29,531 bases of DNA from a virus. This document shows, piece after piece, positions 5,289 through 29,531 of the stretch (positions are counted from its first letter, which is position 1; the number at the start of each line of letters is the position of its first letter). Under the pieces are notes generated by a model, which was not told the origin of the DNA, did not search any database, and was given only the letters and a program-made list of their open reading frames with translations. The stretch is from IMG/VR virus record IMGVR_UViG_3300037459_000020, positions 1 to 29,531 of that record, one strand, 5' to 3'. Made by a program: the position numbers and the translations under genes.

Positions 5289-7408
5289 TCGGTTAGCATC
5301 CTACTCAACTCACCAGTCACGTCCTCGAACTTCTCCATGCCTCTGTCGCCCAAGGTACGAAGGTACTCCATGCCGTAGTCGCCCAAGTCTTTCATCATTT
5401 CCTTGTTGAACTCAATGTCAGGTAACTCAGGGGGACCACCGCTCTCGAAGTACTGGTTCTCCGCAGCGACGACCAGACCGCGAAGCTCCTTCATGATGGC
5501 TTGAGCTTTTGTGGGGTCACCTTTGGCATACGTCAGCTTCAAAAGGGCGTTGCGTATCGCCGGACCTTGAATGACTTGCCCTGCAAGTGCCGTGGCTGCA
5601 GCTACCCCCCACAGACCATTCAGGACAGCGAGTCCGACAGCAGCGCCACCACCCATCGCAGCAACCATGCCCGAACCCTTACCTGTCTGAGCAGCTAACG
5701 CAGTGATCCGCATATACTCACGAGCCCCTTCGAGCAACTCTTGTTCACCTTCGTCGAAGAAGACCTTCAGCATCTTCCTGTTCTTAGGAGTGCTGAGGTA
5801 CTTCACGAAGCCATCCGGATCAGCAATCTGCGGAGCGTCAGGAGTCCAACCTGATTTCTCCATTCCCTTGATGAGGAAGCGCCGCTTCACTGCTTGCTTC
5901 CCTTCGGGCATCAGCTTGTTAAACAGATCAACGACACGCTTAGATGTGCCCTGATCTAGAACGCGCTCGACGGTCTCATCAGTAAGGTTACCGTCCCTCA
6001 GCTGTTTAGCTATCGCAACGTCAACAACCGACTCAGATTCCTTCACGAATGCACGTTCAAGCAACTCGTGTGCCTTCGCCTGAGCTTCTCGTCGTGCCTG
6101 CGGTTGCGTGACCCCTGAGGGCCAGTTCTCCGGATCCATGATCTCCTTGTTCTTACCCCAGAACCGCTGCTTGATCATGCGGGTGATGAAGTTGTCCGCG
6201 ATGTCTTGACCCAGCTCACTCTCGATGTCGATGCCGTACTTGTTAGCGATATCGATGAGTGCATCTGTTCTCGCTGCTTTCTGTCTGATTCTCTGACGAC
6301 CGATACCTGTGATCGGGACACGTTCAATCGTTTTGAAGAAGATATTTTGGATAGGAGATATGTACTGCGAGAGAGCATCGGAGGTGTAGATTTTCCGCCC
6401 CGTTGACTTTGCATAATCCAGTGCTTGCTGGACACCTTTAGGTACAATGTCAACCGTATACCCTATCAGCTCCTTGCCTTTGGCAGCGACGTTCGCCAGT
6501 GGCTTCGCGAGGTGCTCACCCACCTTACCCGCTACTGCAGTGAACGCGATGTCTTCTGGATCGAAGTCGCCACCCGGCACCGCTTCGTGACCCGCTTCAA
6601 TCCCTGTTTGAGTGGCACCGGCTGCACCTGCCATCCGATAACTTGCTCGACGAACAGCTGCTTTCTCCAGCTGCTTACGCATCGTTGCACTAGCTACTCT
6701 AGGCAGCACTGTCTTCACACCCATCGATGCAAATCTACCTGCCGGTGTGAACATTGCACCGAGTCCCAACATCTGCAGTGCGTCCATGCCGCTCGCGCCG
6801 GGACGGTTGATGAGTCCACGTGCACCAGTCTCGTTGTTGGTTGCGATGATCGCACCGTCGGGTGCATAGGTGATGCCTATGACGTCATTGGAAATTTCCT
6901 TCAGCATGTTCGCGATCTCTTGCGGATCGGTCATCGTCATCGCAGCTGTTGCTACCGCAGCTCGTTGCGCAAGAGTAAGCGTTGAACCAACACCACCACC
7001 CGTCTCTTCTGTGGTACGTCCCGGTCCTACACGCGGAGCGTCACCACCAAGCATTGGCGGCACGAACATCTCGCCCAGCTCCTGTGATGCACGCGACGTC
7101 CCCGGCTCCTCCGGAAATTCACTGTAATCCTCAAGAGGATTTACCAGTTCTTCTTCAGTGGCGGCGAAAGGGTCAGCGAAGCCAACCGAGGAAGCATCCG
7201 CAAACGGATCCGTAAACGGATCGGCGAACGGCATGTCTGGTTCGGGGAGCTGCTCAGCTTGTGCCAGCATTTGCATCTGAGCCTGCTCTTCTTCAGATGG
7301 AGTCTCCCCCGGTGCGTACCCTTGTGCTGCCAGCGCTTGGTCTTTCGCCTGCATCTCAGCCTGCATGCGGAGGAGGTCTTCTGCTGTCGTGTAATCAGGT
7401 TCAGCCAT
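5285..7408 (-). CDS. Putative large internal virion/ejection protein
   Basis: The 707-residue protein starts with an acidic, Gln/Glu-rich and probably disordered region carrying tandem ADPF/TDPF units at about residues 60-82. It continues with an Ala-rich segment, a long mixed helical body (about 250-570), and one strongly hydrophobic Gly/Ala-rich segment at about 580-612 (GGGAAVGLAVLNGLWGVAAA) before a charged C terminus. Size, one membrane-like segment late in the chain and position among similar proteins match podophage ejection proteins that form a channel after infection. I recognise no enzyme motif. It overlaps its upstream neighbour as TGATG and terS as ATGA. Confidence 0.65.
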   Translation of the reverse strand: MAEPDYTTAEDLLRMQAEMQAKDQALAAQGYAPGETPSEEEQAQMQMLAQAEQLPEPDMPFADPFTDPFADASSVGFADPFAATEEELVNPLEDYSEFPEEPGTSRASQELGEMFVPPMLGGDAPRVGPGRTTEETGGGVGSTLTLAQRAAVATAAMTMTDPQEIANMLKEISNDVIGITYAPDGAIIATNNETGARGLINRPGASGMDALQMLGLGAMFTPAGRFASMGVKTVLPRVASATMRKQLEKAAVRRASYRMAGAAGATQTGIEAGHEAVPGGDFDPEDIAFTAVAGKVGEHLAKPLANVAAKGKELIGYTVDIVPKGVQQALDYAKSTGRKIYTSDALSQYISPIQNIFFKTIERVPITGIGRQRIRQKAARTDALIDIANKYGIDIESELGQDIADNFITRMIKQRFWGKNKEIMDPENWPSGVTQPQARREAQAKAHELLERAFVKESESVVDVAIAKQLRDGNLTDETVERVLDQGTSKRVVDLFNKLMPEGKQAVKRRFLIKGMEKSGWTPDAPQIADPDGFVKYLSTPKNRKMLKVFFDEGEQELLEGAREYMRITALAAQTGKGSGMVAAMGGGAAVGLAVLNGLWGVAAATALAGQVIQGPAIRNALLKLTYAKGDPTKAQAIMKELRGLVVAAENQYFESGGPPELPDIEFNKEMMKDLGDYGMEYLRTLGDRGMEKFEDVTGELSRMLTE

Positions 7409-8718
7409 CAGTCTTTAAACCCCTTCTTACGCAGTTTAGAAAGCACATCAGGATCTACTGGAGGCCAACCGTAGTGACTCTCATAGAACTTGATCAGCGC
7501 ATCGTTGTTTGGGTTGTTGAGGTCAAAACCCTTAGTCAGAATGTCGTTGTGTGCAGGAGTTGGAATCTTAGCCGCTGCCTGCCCTGCCATCTGCTCCATT
7601 TCTTTTCTCGCAGACTCTGACGTACGGTACTCTCGGTACCTGAACACTGACAGATCATCATCAGGATTCTTAGCTTGGGAGAGAGCTGCCCGCTCCCCGA
7701 TATTGATGATGTTGTCGTAGCGTCCTAACATCTCGTCGATGATGCGCAGGTTAGCCTCCTGACTCGCATCTGGGCTCGCGTTGAGCGACTCAATTTTCCG
7801 GTACTCGAAGTCAGTCTTCGTACCCGTCAAGCGTGACAGCTGGTTGAGAACCTCATCACCGATGAGCCTTCGGACCACTCTGAGGTCTGCGTCGTCTGCG
7901 ATTCTAATGTTGAGGAACTCACCCATACGTGCGATCCCAGCTTTGAGTCCGCCGGTCTCTATCTCTGCAAAGATCGCCCGCGCATCACGCAGCTTGTCTT
8001 GTGCAATGGTTGCGATCAGCCCTTGATCGATATCGTGCTGGGCACGTCGAGCCGCAAGGGTTCCCGCAACCTTGGCAGCATCTCTCTCACGTACGGTGAT
8101 GGGGTTCGCGGAAGATACTACCTGCAGCAACTCACCGGTATCCGTTCCCGTGAAGATGTGCTCCGTCGTTCCGTCGCTGTGCACGATGGTTTGTTTCTCG
8201 ATATGTCGCCACTGCTCTGGATTGTCTGGGAACTCAGCGACATCATCCGGGTGATACACGGTTGACCTTGAGCCCAGACGGGCACGTGATTGCAGAGCAA
8301 TCTGTTGCTGCTTCGTCTCAGAGTCGAGGATATCTTTTTCAATATCAGTCAGCAGCTCCCGCTTCTCTGAGCGAGCCTCGCCTATCAGACCTGCAGCAGC
8401 ACCTACGGACTCACCGAAGCCACCTGTACGAGTAGGTGCCAGCATGCCCTGTGCAAGAGCAAGCCACTGACCACTCTTATCAGCTTCGATTTTATCGCGT
8501 CGGTCCATCAGATTTTGGCGTGCCTCTTCCAACCGCTTCATCGCAATCGAGTTGGTCATCTTTTTGCCTGCCCGACTGGACTGCGTAGGTAGATGAGCGG
8601 GTTCCCTTCCCGTCGCCTCTTCCAGTGCACCGGGAGCTTCGATCATGGAGGGGTCGTCCAGCTCGTCAGGATCTACACCCGTCACTGCTGCCAGCCCACC
8701 TGCTTGATAATTAGCCAT
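7408..8718 (-). CDS. Putative internal virion protein
   Basis: The 436-residue protein begins with NYQAGGLA, one of the recurring GG motifs of this operon. A Pro/Glu-rich linker follows, then a predominantly helical, charged body including a likely coiled-coil stretch around residues 60-145 (many Lys, Glu, Gln and Arg, with KKMTNSIAMKRLEEARQNL near the start). The C terminus is rich in Asp and Pro. There is no obvious transmembrane segment and no catalytic motif. Sitting between two other GG-motif proteins and overlapping both by one base (TGATG), it is probably a virion or ejection component, but this is inferred from context. Confidence 0.65.
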   Translation of the reverse strand: MANYQAGGLAAVTGVDPDELDDPSMIEAPGALEEATGREPAHLPTQSSRAGKKMTNSIAMKRLEEARQNLMDRRDKIEADKSGQWLALAQGMLAPTRTGGFGESVGAAAGLIGEARSEKRELLTDIEKDILDSETKQQQIALQSRARLGSRSTVYHPDDVAEFPDNPEQWRHIEKQTIVHSDGTTEHIFTGTDTGELLQVVSSANPITVRERDAAKVAGTLAARRAQHDIDQGLIATIAQDKLRDARAIFAEIETGGLKAGIARMGEFLNIRIADDADLRVVRRLIGDEVLNQLSRLTGTKTDFEYRKIESLNASPDASQEANLRIIDEMLGRYDNIINIGERAALSQAKNPDDDLSVFRYREYRTSESARKEMEQMAGQAAAKIPTPAHNDILTKGFDLNNPNNDALIKFYESHYGWPPVDPDVLSKLRKKGFKD

Positions 8719-8906
8719 CAGTCTTCATCCTCAATCCGTATGCCACCTCGTGCTCGGCTCCGTATGTCACATTCCTCGTACAGCTCGTTAGCAGCTCGGG
8801 CGAACCCCGGATTCTCTCGACCAGTGTTGGCTCCAGTGAGCCCTCTCCACCAACCTTTCACTTTTGTCCATCCTGACTTTGCTGCCTGCGCTAAACCACC
8901 CAACAT
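8718..8906 (-). CDS. Small GGLA-motif virion-type protein
   Basis: The 62-residue protein opens with MLGGLAQAAKSGW, carries an amphipathic Trp/Lys-rich segment (GWTKVKGWWRGLTG), and ends in an acidic tail. The first 20 residues resemble the termini of its larger neighbours (AQGGLAQ at the start of the 650-residue protein and QFGGLAQ in the 709-residue protein), as if it were a free-standing copy of that short module. It is joined by a TGATG overlap to the downstream gene, which supports it being translated. Function is unknown. Membrane association or a virion peptide is possible. Confidence 0.65.
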   Translation of the reverse strand: MLGGLAQAAKSGWTKVKGWWRGLTGANTGRENPGFARAANELYEECDIRSRARGGIRIEDED

Positions 8907-8920
8907 GTAGGGTTCAGCGC

Positions 8921-10063
8921 TTAGTGCTTTCCCGCGAGTGCCAAGCCCCCGTGTGCATATCTGTTAGGTTCGAAATACTCACCGCTCTCGTTGTCAATGT
9001 ACCCACCTTCAGCGTTTCCGAACTCATCCCGCATCCCTCGATACGCACCGTAAGCACCGACGATCTGCGACAGTCCCGAAGGCTGGTAGATATCAGCAGG
9101 ACCGTAGTCCTGTCGCTGCGTCGTTCGTCCAATCGCTGACGATGGCAGACCACGAATCATCTCGCTCATGAAACGAGTGCGATCCATCGGCAGGTCACGC
9201 TGCTCGCGGAAGTCTTGGTATCCCAGATCGAGGCTGGCTTGACCCATGCCACGTCGAGTTTTACCAACTGCTTCCATCGCAGCGGCGTCACCGTAGCCCA
9301 GCTTCGATGCTCGCTCACCCAATCCACCCGCTGTCTCACCGGCTTGCAGCATGCCCAGTCCTTGTTGAACACCGAGTCGTCCGCCAGCTTCTTCGAGACC
9401 ACCTCTGATTTCACCAGCTTGGATATCCCTTGCTCGGTCTGCACCGAACAATTCACCTGCCTGACCGTAGGCACCGGAGAGTGTCGCCAGTCGCTGTTCT
9501 TCCAGACCCTCTTGGATATCGCGCACGCCGCGCATACCAATCTGCTCCATGGATCCTTCGCCACCTCGCGAACCGAACTGACCTGCACCCGTGAATGACT
9601 TCTGCAGACCGGGTAGGAATTTCTCTTCGAACGTGCGTGTAGCGAGGCTCTCTTGACGGTCGAGCACGTTCTGAACGTACGGGTCCATGTAGCGATCCAC
9701 GCCTTCAGGAAACTCTTCAGTGCCCGATGTGAGGTAAGGATCTGCAGCACCTCTCGGATCGTATTGCTCTCCGAAGCGGTCGAGTCCACCACGTACACCT
9801 TCGGCACCTGCTTCGAGCCATGGCTGGTAGGCACCGACATTCTCTTCGGCCATACCAAAGGCAGCTTCCTCCTCCGGAGCGAACGGCGCGATGCGCGGAC
9901 CACCGTAGGGGATGTATGGTTCAGCTGCCGCAGCGTTCGCTCTCGCGATCAGACCCTGCGTGTAATCTGACATCCACTTCGGGACGTTCTCGATGGTCTG
10001 TCCGTAGGTGTTGACCGACTTGGGCGGCTTCCCTTCGAACAAGAAATCAGTGACGCTTCCCAT
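8921..10063 (-). CDS. Putative internal virion/ejection protein
   Basis: The 380-residue protein is rich in Gly, Glu, Tyr and Arg. It contains a segment typical of a common phage structural family: YIPYGGPRIAPF near residues 50-61, DPYVQNVLDRQ around 140, and a Gly-rich QFGSRGGEGSMEQ region near 175. A helical, Gln/Gly-rich middle follows. The C terminus carries two GG motifs (NAEGGYI and YAHGGLALAG) ending in KH. I do not see a transmembrane segment. Similar proteins in other phages are usually labelled virion structural or DNA ejection proteins. It overlaps its upstream gene as TGATG. Confidence 0.7.
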   Translation of the reverse strand: MGSVTDFLFEGKPPKSVNTYGQTIENVPKWMSDYTQGLIARANAAAAEPYIPYGGPRIAPFAPEEEAAFGMAEENVGAYQPWLEAGAEGVRGGLDRFGEQYDPRGAADPYLTSGTEEFPEGVDRYMDPYVQNVLDRQESLATRTFEEKFLPGLQKSFTGAGQFGSRGGEGSMEQIGMRGVRDIQEGLEEQRLATLSGAYGQAGELFGADRARDIQAGEIRGGLEEAGGRLGVQQGLGMLQAGETAGGLGERASKLGYGDAAAMEAVGKTRRGMGQASLDLGYQDFREQRDLPMDRTRFMSEMIRGLPSSAIGRTTQRQDYGPADIYQPSGLSQIVGAYGAYRGMRDEFGNAEGGYIDNESGEYFEPNRYAHGGLALAGKH

Positions 10064-12015
10064 CAGGCGTTTCCTCCTGCCGCTGGACGATTAGGTGGCA
10101 CGGGACTGGTCCCACCCACGTTGTGTAGACCTCCATGTTCGTACTTCATCGTACGTCTCAGCTTCTTGACGTTGTTCATGTAGGCACGGGGGTTCTTCGC
10201 CTTGTTAGTGAACTCACCCTTCTTCATCTTGCCTGCCTTGTGCTTGCGTAGCTCCTGTCGCATCTCGTCGAGTCGTCGTGCACCTTCAGATCCAGATCCA
10301 TCACCTAGCAGGGAGACGGACTCAGCATCGATGACATACTCCCCGTCGCTTAAGTACGCTGGGATATCGTCTGATCGACCTGAGCCCGGACCCCGCACAT
10401 GATGACCCCCTTCCCGACTGACTGCCGGTGCTTCGTTGAAGACGTCGTCATTCTGTTCCCAGTAGTCGAACTCGCCACCACGTTGGTAGCCACCGCGTGC
10501 CTGACCAGCCTGACCTGCTGCCTGCGCCGGAGGCATCATGCTGTTGGTCCCCGGATTGAACGTCCAGCCCTGACCCTCCATCTCGCGTCTCTTGATCTGC
10601 CCTGCTCGACCCGAAGGTAGCTGCACTGGTTGAGGTCCAGTCGCTCCTGCAGCCGCTGCCAGAGGACTCGTGTCACCGGGGAAGGGTTCCGGTGCCATGA
10701 ACAGGTGCTGCCCCGACATCGGTGAGCCTGCCTGACCGTAGGTGAAATAATCCGATGGGTCTTTGAGTCCCCGGAACTGTCGATTCATCTTGAAGACCGG
10801 CAGACGCTCGCCCCACTCAGCTGGTAGCTGCGGAGGTCCATCGTCTTCGTAGTCACCCGAACTCGCTGCGCCCAGAGTAGTCAGCCCAGCCAGTGCAGGG
10901 ATTGCGTACTTGTCTGCCAGAGCCATCAAGCTCTGAGTCCTCGTGGGTGCCGCAGCTGGAGGAGCCGCCAGTGGATCCGTCACGGGTGCGGGACTTGCCG
11001 TACGAGGGGTACGACCCGGATCGGCTCCAGCGAGCACCTCCTGCGTCGTCACTGGACGATCTAGGGTTGGGGTGTACGCTTCCCCCCCTGCATCGATACC
11101 GGGGGCAGGAGGCGGCGTGCGGCCCTCCATGCGAGCTATGTACTGTCCGATCTTCGTCTCACCGGCAGGCTTCATGCCCATTGCAGCGCGAGCGTCCGCT
11201 GAGAACCGCTCGCCTATCGGTTGGGTGCCTGCGGTCATTGCACCGGTAAGTGCACCTCCGACGATGTCACCTCCAGTCAGCCCAGCTCCAGCACCCTGGA
11301 TCACAGCGCTGCCAACGACGCTTGCGGTCTTACTGCCAGCCTCCAAGCCTAGAGCTGTACCCACCTTATTTCCGTACGCGCCAGCAGCAGCTCCCAGACC
11401 TCCAGAGAGGGCTCCTGCAATCGCTCCTTCCTTGCCACCGGTCACGGCACCCAGTCCACCCTGCACGATAGCGTTGCCCGCCACGGATGCCATGGCACCG
11501 CTCATACCCAGCTTCAGACCGATGGCAGTCCCAAGCCCAGGCATGAACATCGACAGTGCGATGGGAGCGATCATCCGGAACGCGTCCGACTTGACGATTT
11601 TTTTCACGCCTTTCTTGATCTTCTTCCACACCTTGGACAGGAAGCCATACTCACCGATGCCGGTCTTCGGGTTGATCTCTGGCTCACCCCACATCGCAGT
11701 GATCGCTTCGTACTCTTCCGGGCTCATGTGGAGCATCATCGAGTCGTCACCGCGACCTGCCTGTCGAGTCTTCTCAGCAGCGCTGGCAACACCACCACGT
11801 GCTTTCTTCACCGACCCACCGATGCAGTAGAGCCTGACCTTCTTGGCATCCTTCTTCGGAATGCCTTGGTCCGTCATCATCTGTTCGGCGGCAACGGTGT
11901 AGAGCAGCTCCGGACCTCCAGGCACCAACTCGATTGCGCGAGCGGTATCGCTGAGTTCCTTCGACCCACCCTGTTGAGCGAGCATTTGTGCGAGTCCACC
12001 TTGTGCTGCTGGCAT
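10063..12015 (-). CDS. Putative membrane-active ejection protein with GG motifs
   Basis: I place the start at ATG 12015, preceded by GAAGGG, because a longer frame to 12108 would overlap the neighbouring 80-residue gene by about 90 bp. The 650-residue protein begins MPAAQGGLAQ and has a basic amphipathic helix (FLSKVWKKIKKG, about 125-136). About 120 residues of Gly/Ala-rich hydrophobic repeat follow (about 145-265), likely membrane-inserting. Then come a Pro-rich region and a conserved-looking block at about 542-575 (SDDIPAYLSDGEYVID, then SLLGDGS). It ends with a KYEHGGL motif and a disordered tail. The SDGEYVID block recurs in virion proteins of many environmental phages, by my recollection. 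A role in DNA delivery is inferred. Confidence 0.7.
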   Translation of the reverse strand: MPAAQGGLAQMLAQQGGSKELSDTARAIELVPGGPELLYTVAAEQMMTDQGIPKKDAKKVRLYCIGGSVKKARGGVASAAEKTRQAGRGDDSMMLHMSPEEYEAITAMWGEPEINPKTGIGEYGFLSKVWKKIKKGVKKIVKSDAFRMIAPIALSMFMPGLGTAIGLKLGMSGAMASVAGNAIVQGGLGAVTGGKEGAIAGALSGGLGAAAGAYGNKVGTALGLEAGSKTASVVGSAVIQGAGAGLTGGDIVGGALTGAMTAGTQPIGERFSADARAAMGMKPAGETKIGQYIARMEGRTPPPAPGIDAGGEAYTPTLDRPVTTQEVLAGADPGRTPRTASPAPVTDPLAAPPAAAPTRTQSLMALADKYAIPALAGLTTLGAASSGDYEDDGPPQLPAEWGERLPVFKMNRQFRGLKDPSDYFTYGQAGSPMSGQHLFMAPEPFPGDTSPLAAAAGATGPQPVQLPSGRAGQIKRREMEGQGWTFNPGTNSMMPPAQAAGQAGQARGGYQRGGEFDYWEQNDDVFNEAPAVSREGGHHVRGPGSGRSDDIPAYLSDGEYVIDAESVSLLGDGSGSEGARRLDEMRQELRKHKAGKMKKGEFTNKAKNPRAYMNNVKKLRRTMKYEHGGLHNVGGTSPVPPNRPAAGGNA

Positions 12016-12019
12016 TTTT

Positions 12020-12262
12020 CTACCCTTCAAAATTCGTTGTGGCGAAGAGGCGTTGTGCCCATGCTCGCCAGTTGTCGTATGTGTACGGATCCGGTGCGTC
12101 CTGCCCAACCGGGTCCACGTCTCCGAACACTGTCGCCGCCCACTGCTGCCACTCGTCTTCGTTGTCGAGTCGGGGGAAGTTCTCCGACCGACGCTCGAAC
12201 AGTGGGACCATGAAGTCTGCCCACTCGATCACGTTGTCGAAGCCTCGCGGATCGATGATCAT
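12020..12262 (-). CDS. Hypothetical small protein following the nozzle gene
   Basis: The 80-residue acidic protein is rich in Trp, Asp and Phe (DEWQQWAATVFGDVDP, YDNWRAWAQRLF) and ends NFEG. It has no transmembrane segment or Cys motif. The ATG overlaps the nozzle-like gene stop as ATGA, and only 4 nt separate its stop from the next start, so it is clearly embedded in the operon. It may be a small tail or assembly factor. I do not recognise the family. Confidence 0.7.
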   Translation of the reverse strand: MIIDPRGFDNVIEWADFMVPLFERRSENFPRLDNEDEWQQWAATVFGDVDPVGQDAPDPYTYDNWRAWAQRLFATTNFEG

Positions 12263-21541: not shown

Positions 21542-22624
21542 CTATCTCGTGTACGGTGATATGTTAGGACGCAAGAAGGTGTCAGAGCCGTCGCCCTCAC
21601 CCGTCCATGCATCGTCCAGTGCTTCTTTCGCATCGATGTCGATCTGCGGGATCAACTCGATCTTCACTTCTTTGATCTTCCGTGACAGCTGCTTCGACAG
21701 ATTGGATTCAATCGCCATGTACCAGCGATCAGGCACCTCCAGCTCGTCCGTCATCAGACCGACGTCTTGAATCTGACTCTGCACGTACCCGGTGATCTGG
21801 GCGAACGTGAACTGCTCTTCAGGGCTGGGCCAGATCTGCAGCTCAGGGATTGTGCGTTGCCGGTCGTACCACAACTGTGTCGGTCGCCCCGGTGATGTCT
21901 TGTCGGGCAGGTTCGAGTAATCGGTTCGGTTCAGCGTGTGGTAAAACGGGATCTCTTGCGGTGCGTTCTGGATCGCAAACTCGATCACATTGAGGATCGT
22001 GATCCCGTCGTTCGCACGCAGCCGGTAGAACTCGAAGGCGTTCGCGTTCTGGATGTCGTACCAGACCCACTCACCTGCGACAACCACCTGACCCGACGTG
22101 CGATCAATCAGCGTGGTGTAGCTGATGCCGTCATTCGATGCCTCAATCACGAAGCCCCACGGAGAGGCAGACAGCAGCGTATTGACGAGGATGCCGAACG
22201 TTGAGACTGCAGTAGCCGTGTCGAGCTGGAGCTGAATGTTGCCATCCACCAGGGTCTGGGTGCATGCAGTACTCAGATCTTTGTCAAAGGCGTTTTCAGC
22301 TACACCCTCTGACGCTGTCGCAGTACCCCCATCGTTGGTGAACTCATTCTGAGTACGCAGGTTGATGTCGAGGATGTCCTCCGTGCCAAGAGGCAGCGGC
22401 ACAGTGAACTCGCCCGCGTAGATCGGCAGGATGATGCGCTGCACGTTCCACAACTTGATGCCTTTGTTGACGAGGCTCATGCAGAACAGCCACAAACACT
22501 CCAGAGCGATCTGCAAGTGCTCGCCTGTGATCTCCTGCTCGACCATCTTGCAGCGCCTGAAGGCGTGATCGATGATCTGCTGGTTCAGGAAGATCGTCTG
22601 ACCAACTGTTCCACTGGTTGCCAT
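21542..22624 (-). CDS. Connector/tail-accessory protein with inserted discoidin-like domain
   Basis: The 360-residue protein has two halves of one domain. The first is residues 1-95 (helices, then a beta sheet entry: IILPIYAGEFTVPLPLGTEDIL) and the second is residues about 223-360 (RPTQLWYDRQRTIPELQIWP, then a helix LEVPDRWYMAIESNLSKQLSRKI). Together they resemble P22 gp4/adaptor-type head-tail connectors. Between them, residues about 96-222 look like an F5/8-type C (discoidin) domain, with AFDKDLSTAC, WGFVIEASNDGISYTTL and FEFYRLRAN. Discoidin domains bind glycans. GAGGAG sits upstream of ATG 22624, and the frame-shifted extension of the previous gene ends in a TAATG at this start. The connector call is moderately sure. 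Confidence 0.7.
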   Translation of the reverse strand: MATSGTVGQTIFLNQQIIDHAFRRCKMVEQEITGEHLQIALECLWLFCMSLVNKGIKLWNVQRIILPIYAGEFTVPLPLGTEDILDINLRTQNEFTNDGGTATASEGVAENAFDKDLSTACTQTLVDGNIQLQLDTATAVSTFGILVNTLLSASPWGFVIEASNDGISYTTLIDRTSGQVVVAGEWVWYDIQNANAFEFYRLRANDGITILNVIEFAIQNAPQEIPFYHTLNRTDYSNLPDKTSPGRPTQLWYDRQRTIPELQIWPSPEEQFTFAQITGYVQSQIQDVGLMTDELEVPDRWYMAIESNLSKQLSRKIKEVKIELIPQIDIDAKEALDDAWTGEGDGSDTFLRPNISPYTR

Positions 22625-22763
22625 TAGTATCCGGCTCCTCGAACTCTACTTCGTCCACCACGCGGACGCGTACCGTGACCCTTCGGTCTCGGTGATCGCA
22701 CGTGTCGATCCATCACGTCGTTAGCGACCCGGCGAGCTGTACGCTCTACCTTGCCGCCCCGCG
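22624..22763 (-). CDS. -1 frame extension of the 323-aa GG-motif protein
   Basis: This 121-bp stretch between two genes is otherwise the longest gap in the operon, but the -1 frame relative to the upstream gene is open across it. Reading from the slip site gives 46 residues after Lys318 (starting ARGGKVE, ending RGAGY), 14 of them Lys or Arg, and a TAA that overlaps the next ATG as TAATG. The extension repeats the RGGKV motif found in the zero-frame protein. No good start codon or ribosome site lies in this frame: an internal ATG at 22711-22713 has no Shine-Dalgarno. A frameshift fusion of 364 residues is therefore the simplest reading. Confidence 0.7.
22731..22755 (-). other. Possible frameshift-stimulating stem
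   Basis: By hand fold on the transcript, GGC (22755-22753) pairs with GCC (22733-22731), and after a 6-nt bulge GAGC (22746-22743) pairs with GCTC (22737-22734) around loop GTACA. The stem begins 8 nt after the slippery heptamer, within the usual distance. The stem is short, so it may be marginal. Confidence 0.35.
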
Positions 22764-23717
22764 CTTTCCCAAAAGCTTGCCTACCTTCGGCACGTCCGTG
22801 AAGGTGGGCACACCCCCTTTGTCCTCTCGGTAGATACGGTCCCGCTTCGGGGGAGGCTTGTCCTGCACTCGTGCCTTCGGACGTGGGCTGGCTTGTTGAG
22901 ACGCTCGCTGAGCTGACAATGCCTCGTTTACGACGCTGCGCGTACGCTCTTCTCTTGTACGGGCGGCTCGGGCAGCGTTGGCAGCAGCACCTCTACCCAG
23001 CATCCCTACCGACGGGGGGCTGACTGACCCTCCCTCTGCGTACTCCATGAGCCCGCCACGTGCCTTCACGTTCTTGGGCATGCCTTTCTTCGACGCTTTG
23101 CTACGAGCCTTAGCCCTAACCGCTCCGGATTCACCGTAGACCAGCTTCGTACTAATCACCTTCCCGGTGCTTGAGATTAGGGTTCTCGTTCCAACACGTT
23201 TTTTGGTCGCATGGTGCGTCTTGTGCACGCCACCACCACGTGCAAGTCTCGGCTTCAGTCGCTTCGTGCCACCGGCTTCAACATCGGCTTGGGTGCGCCC
23301 CTTACGTGCAGGCTGCACACCTTCGTCCATGGAGGCTTGCGGTCCTGCTGTCTGCACGAACTCACTGGAGGTGTCCTTCACGCGCCCACCGCGCATGTAG
23401 CCCATCTTGTCGCCTTCGGCGTAGAGCTTGTCGTGCATGCCGCCTTCCATGTAGCCGCCACCCGCAGCCTTGGTCATCGTTGACTTCTCTCGTCTCGACT
23501 TCGGTCCACGCTTAGTGGTCACACCGACAGTGCCGCCATGCGAAGCGCGGACGCTCGGTGCACGATGCTTGTTAGCATTCGCAGTCTCATGCGTCGCCTT
23601 CACCGCACCACCACGCATGTAGCCCTTCACGGGTGACTTTCCGGCAGAGCCAGTGAACCCCTGTTCCGCTGGGAACGAGAATTCCTTGACGTACTGCATT
23701 CCTACTTTCTTAGTCAT
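22746..23717 (-). CDS. Basic GG-motif virion protein (zero-frame product)
   Basis: The 323-residue, strongly basic protein is built around recurring motifs: KGYMRGGAV, GGYMEGG, GYMRGGRV, ARGGGV, and MEYAEGGSV, separated by Lys/Arg/Ser/Ala-rich disordered sequence. The C-terminal part (about 285-323) has PPPKRDRIYREDKGG and a VPKVGKLLGK end before RGAAR and stop. It has no catalytic motif. Its place between a small protein and the connector-like gene and its composition suggest a virion or DNA-binding structural protein. A frameshift at codon 317-318 can replace the last five residues with a 46-residue basic tail. Confidence 0.75.
   Translation of the reverse strand: MTKKVGMQYVKEFSFPAEQGFTGSAGKSPVKGYMRGGAVKATHETANANKHRAPSVRASHGGTVGVTTKRGPKSRREKSTMTKAAGGGYMEGGMHDKLYAEGDKMGYMRGGRVKDTSSEFVQTAGPQASMDEGVQPARKGRTQADVEAGGTKRLKPRLARGGGVHKTHHATKKRVGTRTLISSTGKVISTKLVYGESGAVRAKARSKASKKGMPKNVKARGGLMEYAEGGSVSPPSVGMLGRGAAANAARAARTREERTRSVVNEALSAQRASQQASPRPKARVQDKPPPKRDRIYREDKGGVPTFTDVPKVGKLLGKRGAAR
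22764..22770 (-). promoter_or_regulatory. Slippery heptamer GGGAAAG (-1 ribosomal frameshift site)
   Basis: In the zero frame the codons are TTG GGA AAG CGC, so the heptamer reads G GGA AAG, the X XXY YYZ form and the same heptamer as the lambda G/GT shift. An AAGGTAGG-type Shine-Dalgarno-like element lies about 9 nt upstream, and a possible stem starts 8 nt downstream. Shifting opens the 46-residue -1 frame to 22624. Confidence 0.75.
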
Positions 23718-29144: not shown

Positions 29145-29531
29145 TTACAGTCCCGGCGTACCGTAGATGATGCGAGGATCCGTCCAATCCGGAATATAAC
29201 GTTCCGTGGACTTGTACCGCATCGAGTCGGTTTCGAAATCGCCTTCCATCGACTTCTCCAGTCCTCGACGCATCATCATCTGGAGCCCACGAGGAGCATC
29301 CGTCTGCACCCACCACGCTGTGGTAGATGTGATACGGGACAGGTTTGCTTGACCTTGATCGAGCAGACCCATCGAGAGGATCGGGTTGATGTCGTTGTTG
29401 GCAGTGCCAGCTCGCAGCACCGACTTCAGCAACACTTCAGCCTGGAAGACCTGACTCGGACCCGTGACGATCTTGAGAGGCGTCAGCCGGATACGCTTGC
29501 CGTTGTTGTCAACAGCGTTACGGATCTGGAT
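29145..29531 (-). CDS. Major capsid protein, C-terminal part
   Basis: The frame is open from the window edge to TAA at 29145, giving 128 residues of the C-terminal end. It carries a stretch that fits a phage major head protein: NNGKRIRLTPLKIVTGPSQVF, LRAGTANNDINPILSMG, TSTTAWWVQTDAPRGLQMMMRR, and a final KSTERYIPDWTDPRIIYGTPG. The ERY...DWTDPR.IYG ending is typical of Mu gpT-like and related podovirus capsid proteins, by recollection. The N terminus is outside the window. An internal GTG at 29435 is not a true start because the frame continues upstream. Confidence 0.82.
   Translation of the reverse strand: MQIRNAVDNNGKRIRLTPLKIVTGPSQVFQAEVLLKSVLRAGTANNDINPILSMGLLDQGQANLSRITSTTAWWVQTDAPRGLQMMMRRGLEKSMEGDFETDSMRYKSTERYIPDWTDPRIIYGTPGL

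Follow-up and report, generated by a model that had tools for sequence, protein, structure and literature searches.

We suggest that standard bacterial -1 programmed ribosomal frameshifting very probably operates at the 3' ends of two late genes in the viral DNA analysed here, a stretch of 29,531 nucleotides that we call the window. Comparison with related sequences brings out the signal and its conservation, selection on both reading frames, and homologues that carry the added domain in frame. At each site, tRNA-Gly and tRNA-Lys on GGA AAG would re-pair on GGG AAA in some ribosomes, the slip being aided by a hairpin 5-6 nt downstream and by the SD-like GGAGG or GAGGTGG that is present upstream in most relatives. 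Shifted ribosomes would then read past the 0-frame stop close by and extend the protein by a conserved C-terminal domain (46 aa in gene 1, 69 aa in gene 2), and unshifted ribosomes would stop and release the short protein. Since the stop of each extension overlaps the start codon of the following gene, shifted ribosomes would finish where that gene begins.

Gene 1 (22746..23717, minus strand) encodes in frame 0 a basic, Gly-rich protein of 323 aa (pI 10.9) with GG motifs and, in the family alignment, an N-terminal YVKEFSFPAEQGFTGSA motif. Its slippery heptamer, G_GGA_AAG (22764..22770, minus strand), has the phase TTG/GGA/AAG, and an earlier sequence-only reading of this DNA had placed it correctly at codons 316-318. 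The 0-frame TAG (22746..22748, minus strand) lies 5 codons 3' of the heptamer and overlaps a Val codon of the -1 frame. That frame, ARGGKVERTARRVANDVMDRHVRSPRPKGHGTRPRGGRSRVRGAGY (22627..22764, minus strand), is open for 46 codons past the slip, and the TAATG junction claimed for it can be read directly in the sequence: its TAA (22624-22626, minus strand) overlaps the ATG of the next gene (22624-22622). The extension of 46 aa has a pI of about 12 and would give a long product of 364 aa, and the earlier claim of two products, of 323 and 364 residues, is strongly supported by the comparative evidence. The 121-bp gap that would otherwise follow gene 1 had been called the longest of the operon, which is true only when one accepts the 80-aa ORF 12020-12262 as a gene; the homology of this ORF to RW_GP067c justifies doing so. 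Efficient heptamers, defined as CCC, GGG or AAA, then AAA, then A or G, are found in phase only twice in the 8575 codons of the window genes that were scanned. Both stand in the last codons of a gene and are followed by an open -1 frame that closes in TAATG or TGATG.

Relatives were collected from IMG/VR using the adaptor gene next to gene 1 and the gene 1 extension as queries. A perfect in-phase heptamer stands at the gene 1 junction in 36 of 36 extension-encoding contigs, the window counted, and its position is exactly where the -1 frame turns into conserved sequence, namely (K/G)K...RRVAxxVMDRHVRSPRPKGH...RGGRSRVRGGGY or a close variant. An alignment of relatives had been proposed as a check, and in it the heptamer, the open -1 frame and the junction are conserved in all of these contigs, the types of heptamer and junction varying. 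GGGAAAG is the heptamer of the window, L008 and the distant L068; L057 has GGGAAAA, L062 has AAAAAAG and all others have AAAAAAA. The extension closes on the start codon of the next gene, in the form TAATG, TGATG or TAGATG. The 0-frame stop follows 0-5 codons past the heptamer and is TAG in 21 of 21 tabulated loci, and the approximately 4500 codons of these loci hold no further in-phase R_RRA_AAR heptamer besides the junction sites. The seven A at the junction in many relatives raise the alternative that RNA polymerase slips on the A run and that the long product owes nothing to ribosome slippage. Polymerase slippage needs longer A runs than GGGAAAG, GGGAAAA or CCCAAAA offer, however, and the window, L008, L057, L068 and all gene 2 loci have one of these three. 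Throughout, moreover, the sites obey the in-phase X_XXY_YYZ grammar, and there are SD and hairpin elements. We therefore regard polymerase slippage as extremely improbable beside ribosomal frameshifting.

Selection on the overlap points the same way. Among 11 distinct gap-free sequences, pN/pS of the gene 1 extension is 0.25 in the -1 frame versus 1.46 and 1.81 in the other two, and the adjacent adaptor gene gives 0.28 for the same sequence pairs. Judged by these ratios, purifying selection acts on the extension in its -1 reading and in neither of the other frames. In the 48-codon group, all 11 sequences have GTA as the Val codon that overlaps the 0-frame TAG (gene 1 sequences are related, and their counts are not independent), and GTA makes up about 11% of Val codons in these genomes. 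L025 and L062, in which the 0-frame stop directly follows the heptamer, have GTT at the corresponding codon. Taken with the constraint on the -1 frame, the conserved GTA makes it appear that selection favours both termination in frame 0 and continuation in frame -1. Synonymous change is depleted in the stem and stop codons, with p of about 0.003 in a permutation test whose codons were picked from the predicted stem and stop.

The predicted stimulatory hairpin of gene 1 (22724..22757, minus strand; about -18 kcal/mol) follows the heptamer after a spacer of 5-6 nt, and not 8 nt as first described; in the main group the stem GGCGGCUC/GAGUCGCC begins 5 nt after the heptamer. No covariation was found in this stem among the relatives, the outer stem being kept without compensatory change, and hairpin stability is unremarkable or moderate in several members with seven A. 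When the published criteria (PMC4066793) are applied, all 21 loci show a hairpin that begins 4-8 nt past the heptamer; 18 of them also have an SD element, which chance alone would supply at about 28% of codon positions. The three loci that lack a listed SD pattern, the window among them, all carry GGGAAAG, and the most efficient motifs in E. coli are G_GGA_AAG, C_CCA_AAG and A_AAA_AAG (PMC4066793). The window does have a weak SD-like element, AAGGTAGG (22780..22787, minus strand), ending 9 nt before the heptamer. The sequence-only reading had given its position correctly but not its strength, which is about -7.5 kcal/mol with the anti-SD, a value equalled by 5% of codon positions, and AAGGTAGG has no match in the published list of stimulatory SD patterns (PMC4066793). 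The gene 1 site has no Rfam match.

Gene 2 (8921..10063, minus strand) encodes in frame 0 a homologue of Caulobacter phage RW gp065 of 380 aa that ends in YAHGGLALAGKH. Its heptamer, again G_GGA_AAG (8927..8933, minus strand), stands one codon before the 0-frame TAA, and the -1 frame (8721..8927, minus strand) continues for 69 codons past the slip to a TGA (8718-8720, minus strand) that overlaps the ATG of the gene at 7408-8718 as TGATG, so that the product would have 448 aa. This second site (8718-10063, minus strand) was absent from the sequence-only reading, and ORF lists show two adjacent genes there. A search with the gene 2 protein found the shifted arrangement in 14 distinct sequences from 16 contigs. 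All 14 have an in-phase heptamer at the junction (GGGAAAG in 7, GGGAAAA in 4, CCCAAAA in 3); gene 2 status was assigned partly by the heptamer, and every locus with an out-of-frame domain had one. In at least 15 other relatives the domain is in frame. Within the group of the window, L161 and L162, pN/pS of the extension is 0.22 in the -1 frame versus 1.5 and 2.0 in the others.

The gene 2 junction also differs by a single A between close relatives. One extra A at the heptamer makes the gene continuous in L188 and L206, which have five A, and the four A of L190, L191, L205 and L225 leave a -1 shift necessary. Going by run lengths read from the codons, this difference is a natural switch between a fixed and a frameshifted form. 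The in-frame state of L188 and L206 is also what could be expected if sequencing or assembly indels had split one continuous gene, the window being an uncultured IMG/VR contig with short homopolymers near the junction. Errors of this kind would hardly recur in 36 contigs (16 for gene 2) from many samples, in one direction and at different heptamers, and the 0-frame stop, too, depends on a synonymous site that is conserved. We give an indel origin almost no credence and retain programmed frameshifting as the explanation.

The extension could instead be a small gene in its own right, whose translation begins by reinitiation or at an internal start, with no fusion to the upstream protein. Two observations would fit: L025 and L062 carry TAGGAATG right after the heptamer, and the window's gene 2 extension holds an ATG-started ORF of 62 aa (8718-8906), which is listed as a gene of its own. 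The ATG of that ORF is not conserved, however, and L161, L163 and L164 have Ala codons instead. The statement that the gene 1 extension has no usable start of its own was too strong, as GTG and ATG occur at its codons 19 and 20, but starting there would omit the conserved first part, and L057 has no start before extension codon 43. Conservation and selection reach the heptamer, upstream of any start, and reinitiation would not need a heptamer in phase. The stretch of open -1 frame ahead of the gene 1 or gene 2 heptamer is just one or two codons long in L008, L146, L190, L191 and L225 (one codon, at gene 2, in L190, L191 and L225). A separate gene is thus very unlikely, and we hold to a fused product made by frameshifting. 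In L025 (4469-4490) and L062 (2846-2867), an extension-frame ATG (TAGGAATG) lies 2 nt past the 0-frame TAG, and on this branch reinitiation may add to frameshifting or replace it.

The extensions have a varied history. In the out-groups L064-L066 the C-terminus of the gene 1 protein, read in frame, is AKRVADQEIGKHVRSPAPKGHG or a similar sequence and is homologous to the gene 1 extension (hhalign probability 87% over 23 columns). Several relatives, L009, L011-L013, L015-L018, L051 and L067, are without the gene 1 extension, which is therefore dispensable in some lineages. Just upstream of position 2660 of L015, the extension has been lost and a remnant, VRGASY followed by a stop, stands before the adaptor start. 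Extension states are scattered on the adaptor-gene tree, so that gain, loss or exchange must have taken place several times. The states of genes 1 and 2 vary independently between contigs: the L025 contig has gene 1 shifted and gene 2 in frame, and the L013 contig has gene 1 without an extension and gene 2 shifted.

The window starts inside the major coat protein gene, whose C-terminal part (29145-29531) is 82% identical to Caulobacter phage RW gp086. It has further genes in common with RW, with ctpbd312 (MW202545) and, more distantly, with pelagiphage HTVC023P, and the large relatives are contigs of 44-57 kb. Gene 1 lies between a small gene, which follows a fibre-like gene, and the downstream gene (21542..22624, minus strand), a homologue of the gene annotated as tail adaptor in MW202545.1. 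Residues of about 91-221 of this tail-adaptor-like protein are predicted to form a CBM32/F5-8 type C (carbohydrate-binding) domain (VIA Z of about 17, 123 residues at 1.8 A), a seemingly uncommon feature in an adaptor; matches in fold searches were mostly to this inserted domain. The 0-frame gene 1 protein and its in-frame relatives match no family in PHROGs, Pfam or NCBIfam, apart from a short, weak match to phrog_2423, a family of unknown function. Phage records gave no match to the gene 1 region by blastn, nor phages to the extension by tblastn, nor the genome contigs to a profile of the extension alignment. The N-terminus of this GG protein was not found in RW, MW202545 or HTVC023P. Because, in addition, tblastn of the in-frame relatives against phage records returned no full-length homologue, no isolate with gene 1 is known here. 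A structure model of the in-frame relative L065 was set aside for its low confidence (mean pLDDT 60, pTM 0.26). Gene position is what suggests that the GG protein is a virion protein.

Lambda makes gpGT from gpG by a shift at GGGAAAG, and gene 1 resembles this system in its heptamer, in the -1 direction and in a long product made by a shift near the gene end. It differs in that the protein is basic, Gly-rich and without a family match, in that a tail adaptor gene and not a tape measure gene is next, and in that the phage is a podophage. The gene context (a tail-adaptor-like gene next, no tape measure, a podophage lineage), together with the lack of a family match, agrees with the earlier view that gene 1 encodes no chaperone. 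A tail assembly chaperone of the lambda type was considered and rejected, as gene 1 is not directly upstream of a tape measure gene. The tape-measure-like gene is at 10063-12108 (minus strand), where a 681-aa gene of this podophage-like genome has a short C-terminal match to tape measure protein families. The A-type relatives share with E. coli dnaX an A_AAA_AAG-type site, an upstream SD and a downstream hairpin, but the shifted dnaX product is the shorter one and here it is the longer.

The sequence-only reading took a frameshift in a virion gene outside the chaperones to be a new setting, which goes too far. C-terminal extensions that frameshifting adds to virion proteins other than chaperones are known from T7 and T3 (major coat protein), both short-tailed, and from A2, A118, A500 and PSA, the last with frameshifts in two structural genes (PMC5009743). 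Like gene 10 of T7 and T3 (10A/10B), the genes described here belong to a short-tailed phage and would have a -1 shift near the 3' end of a virion gene that extends some copies (PMC5009743), although the virion role is inferred in our case. Genes 1 and 2 do not encode the major coat protein (29145-29531), however, and the families are unrelated. A T7-type gene 10 frameshift was rejected, since the shifted gene would then be the coat gene, which lies elsewhere in the window. The T7 site has G_GU in its first half, whereas the heptamers here are canonical X_XXY_YYZ. In the coat (and tail) genes of Lactobacillus phage A2 and Listeria phages A118, A500 and PSA, as here, one C-terminal domain is in frame or behind a frameshift depending on the phage (PMC5009743). 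Those extensions are Ig-like and no Ig-like domain was found here; unlike those phages, moreover, in-frame and shifted forms occur here at homologous sites of one gene family, always -1. As such extensions are already known, the mechanism is not new, and what is new is two undescribed gene families.

Actual shifting, its efficiency and the presence of the products in virions are what we infer from the comparative signal. It may be most economical to suppose that a fixed share of the copies receives a C-terminal domain. Most copies would then be short, and the extension could, tentatively, serve as a tag on a minority, through which these copies bind a partner in the virion (DNA, portal or adaptor). 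Each tag is in frame, shifted or lost among relatives, and the heptamer has been exchanged repeatedly. On this basis, one possible and speculative view is that this podophage lineage employs two independent -1 frameshifts within one virion module as a general device for dosing C-terminal tags, which would place a fixed minority of each virion protein at a specific site of the particle. Ordinary ORF calling lists the short forms only, and conserved C-terminal domains are overlooked as a consequence. Homologous sites with GGGAAAG, GGGAAAA, AAAAAAA, AAAAAAG and CCCAAAA, in-frame versions and losses make the family a natural experiment on how frameshift sites are born, change and disappear. Phage recoding thereby gains two previously undescribed gene families, which indicates that frameshifting in the virion region of podophages extends beyond the T7-type coat gene.
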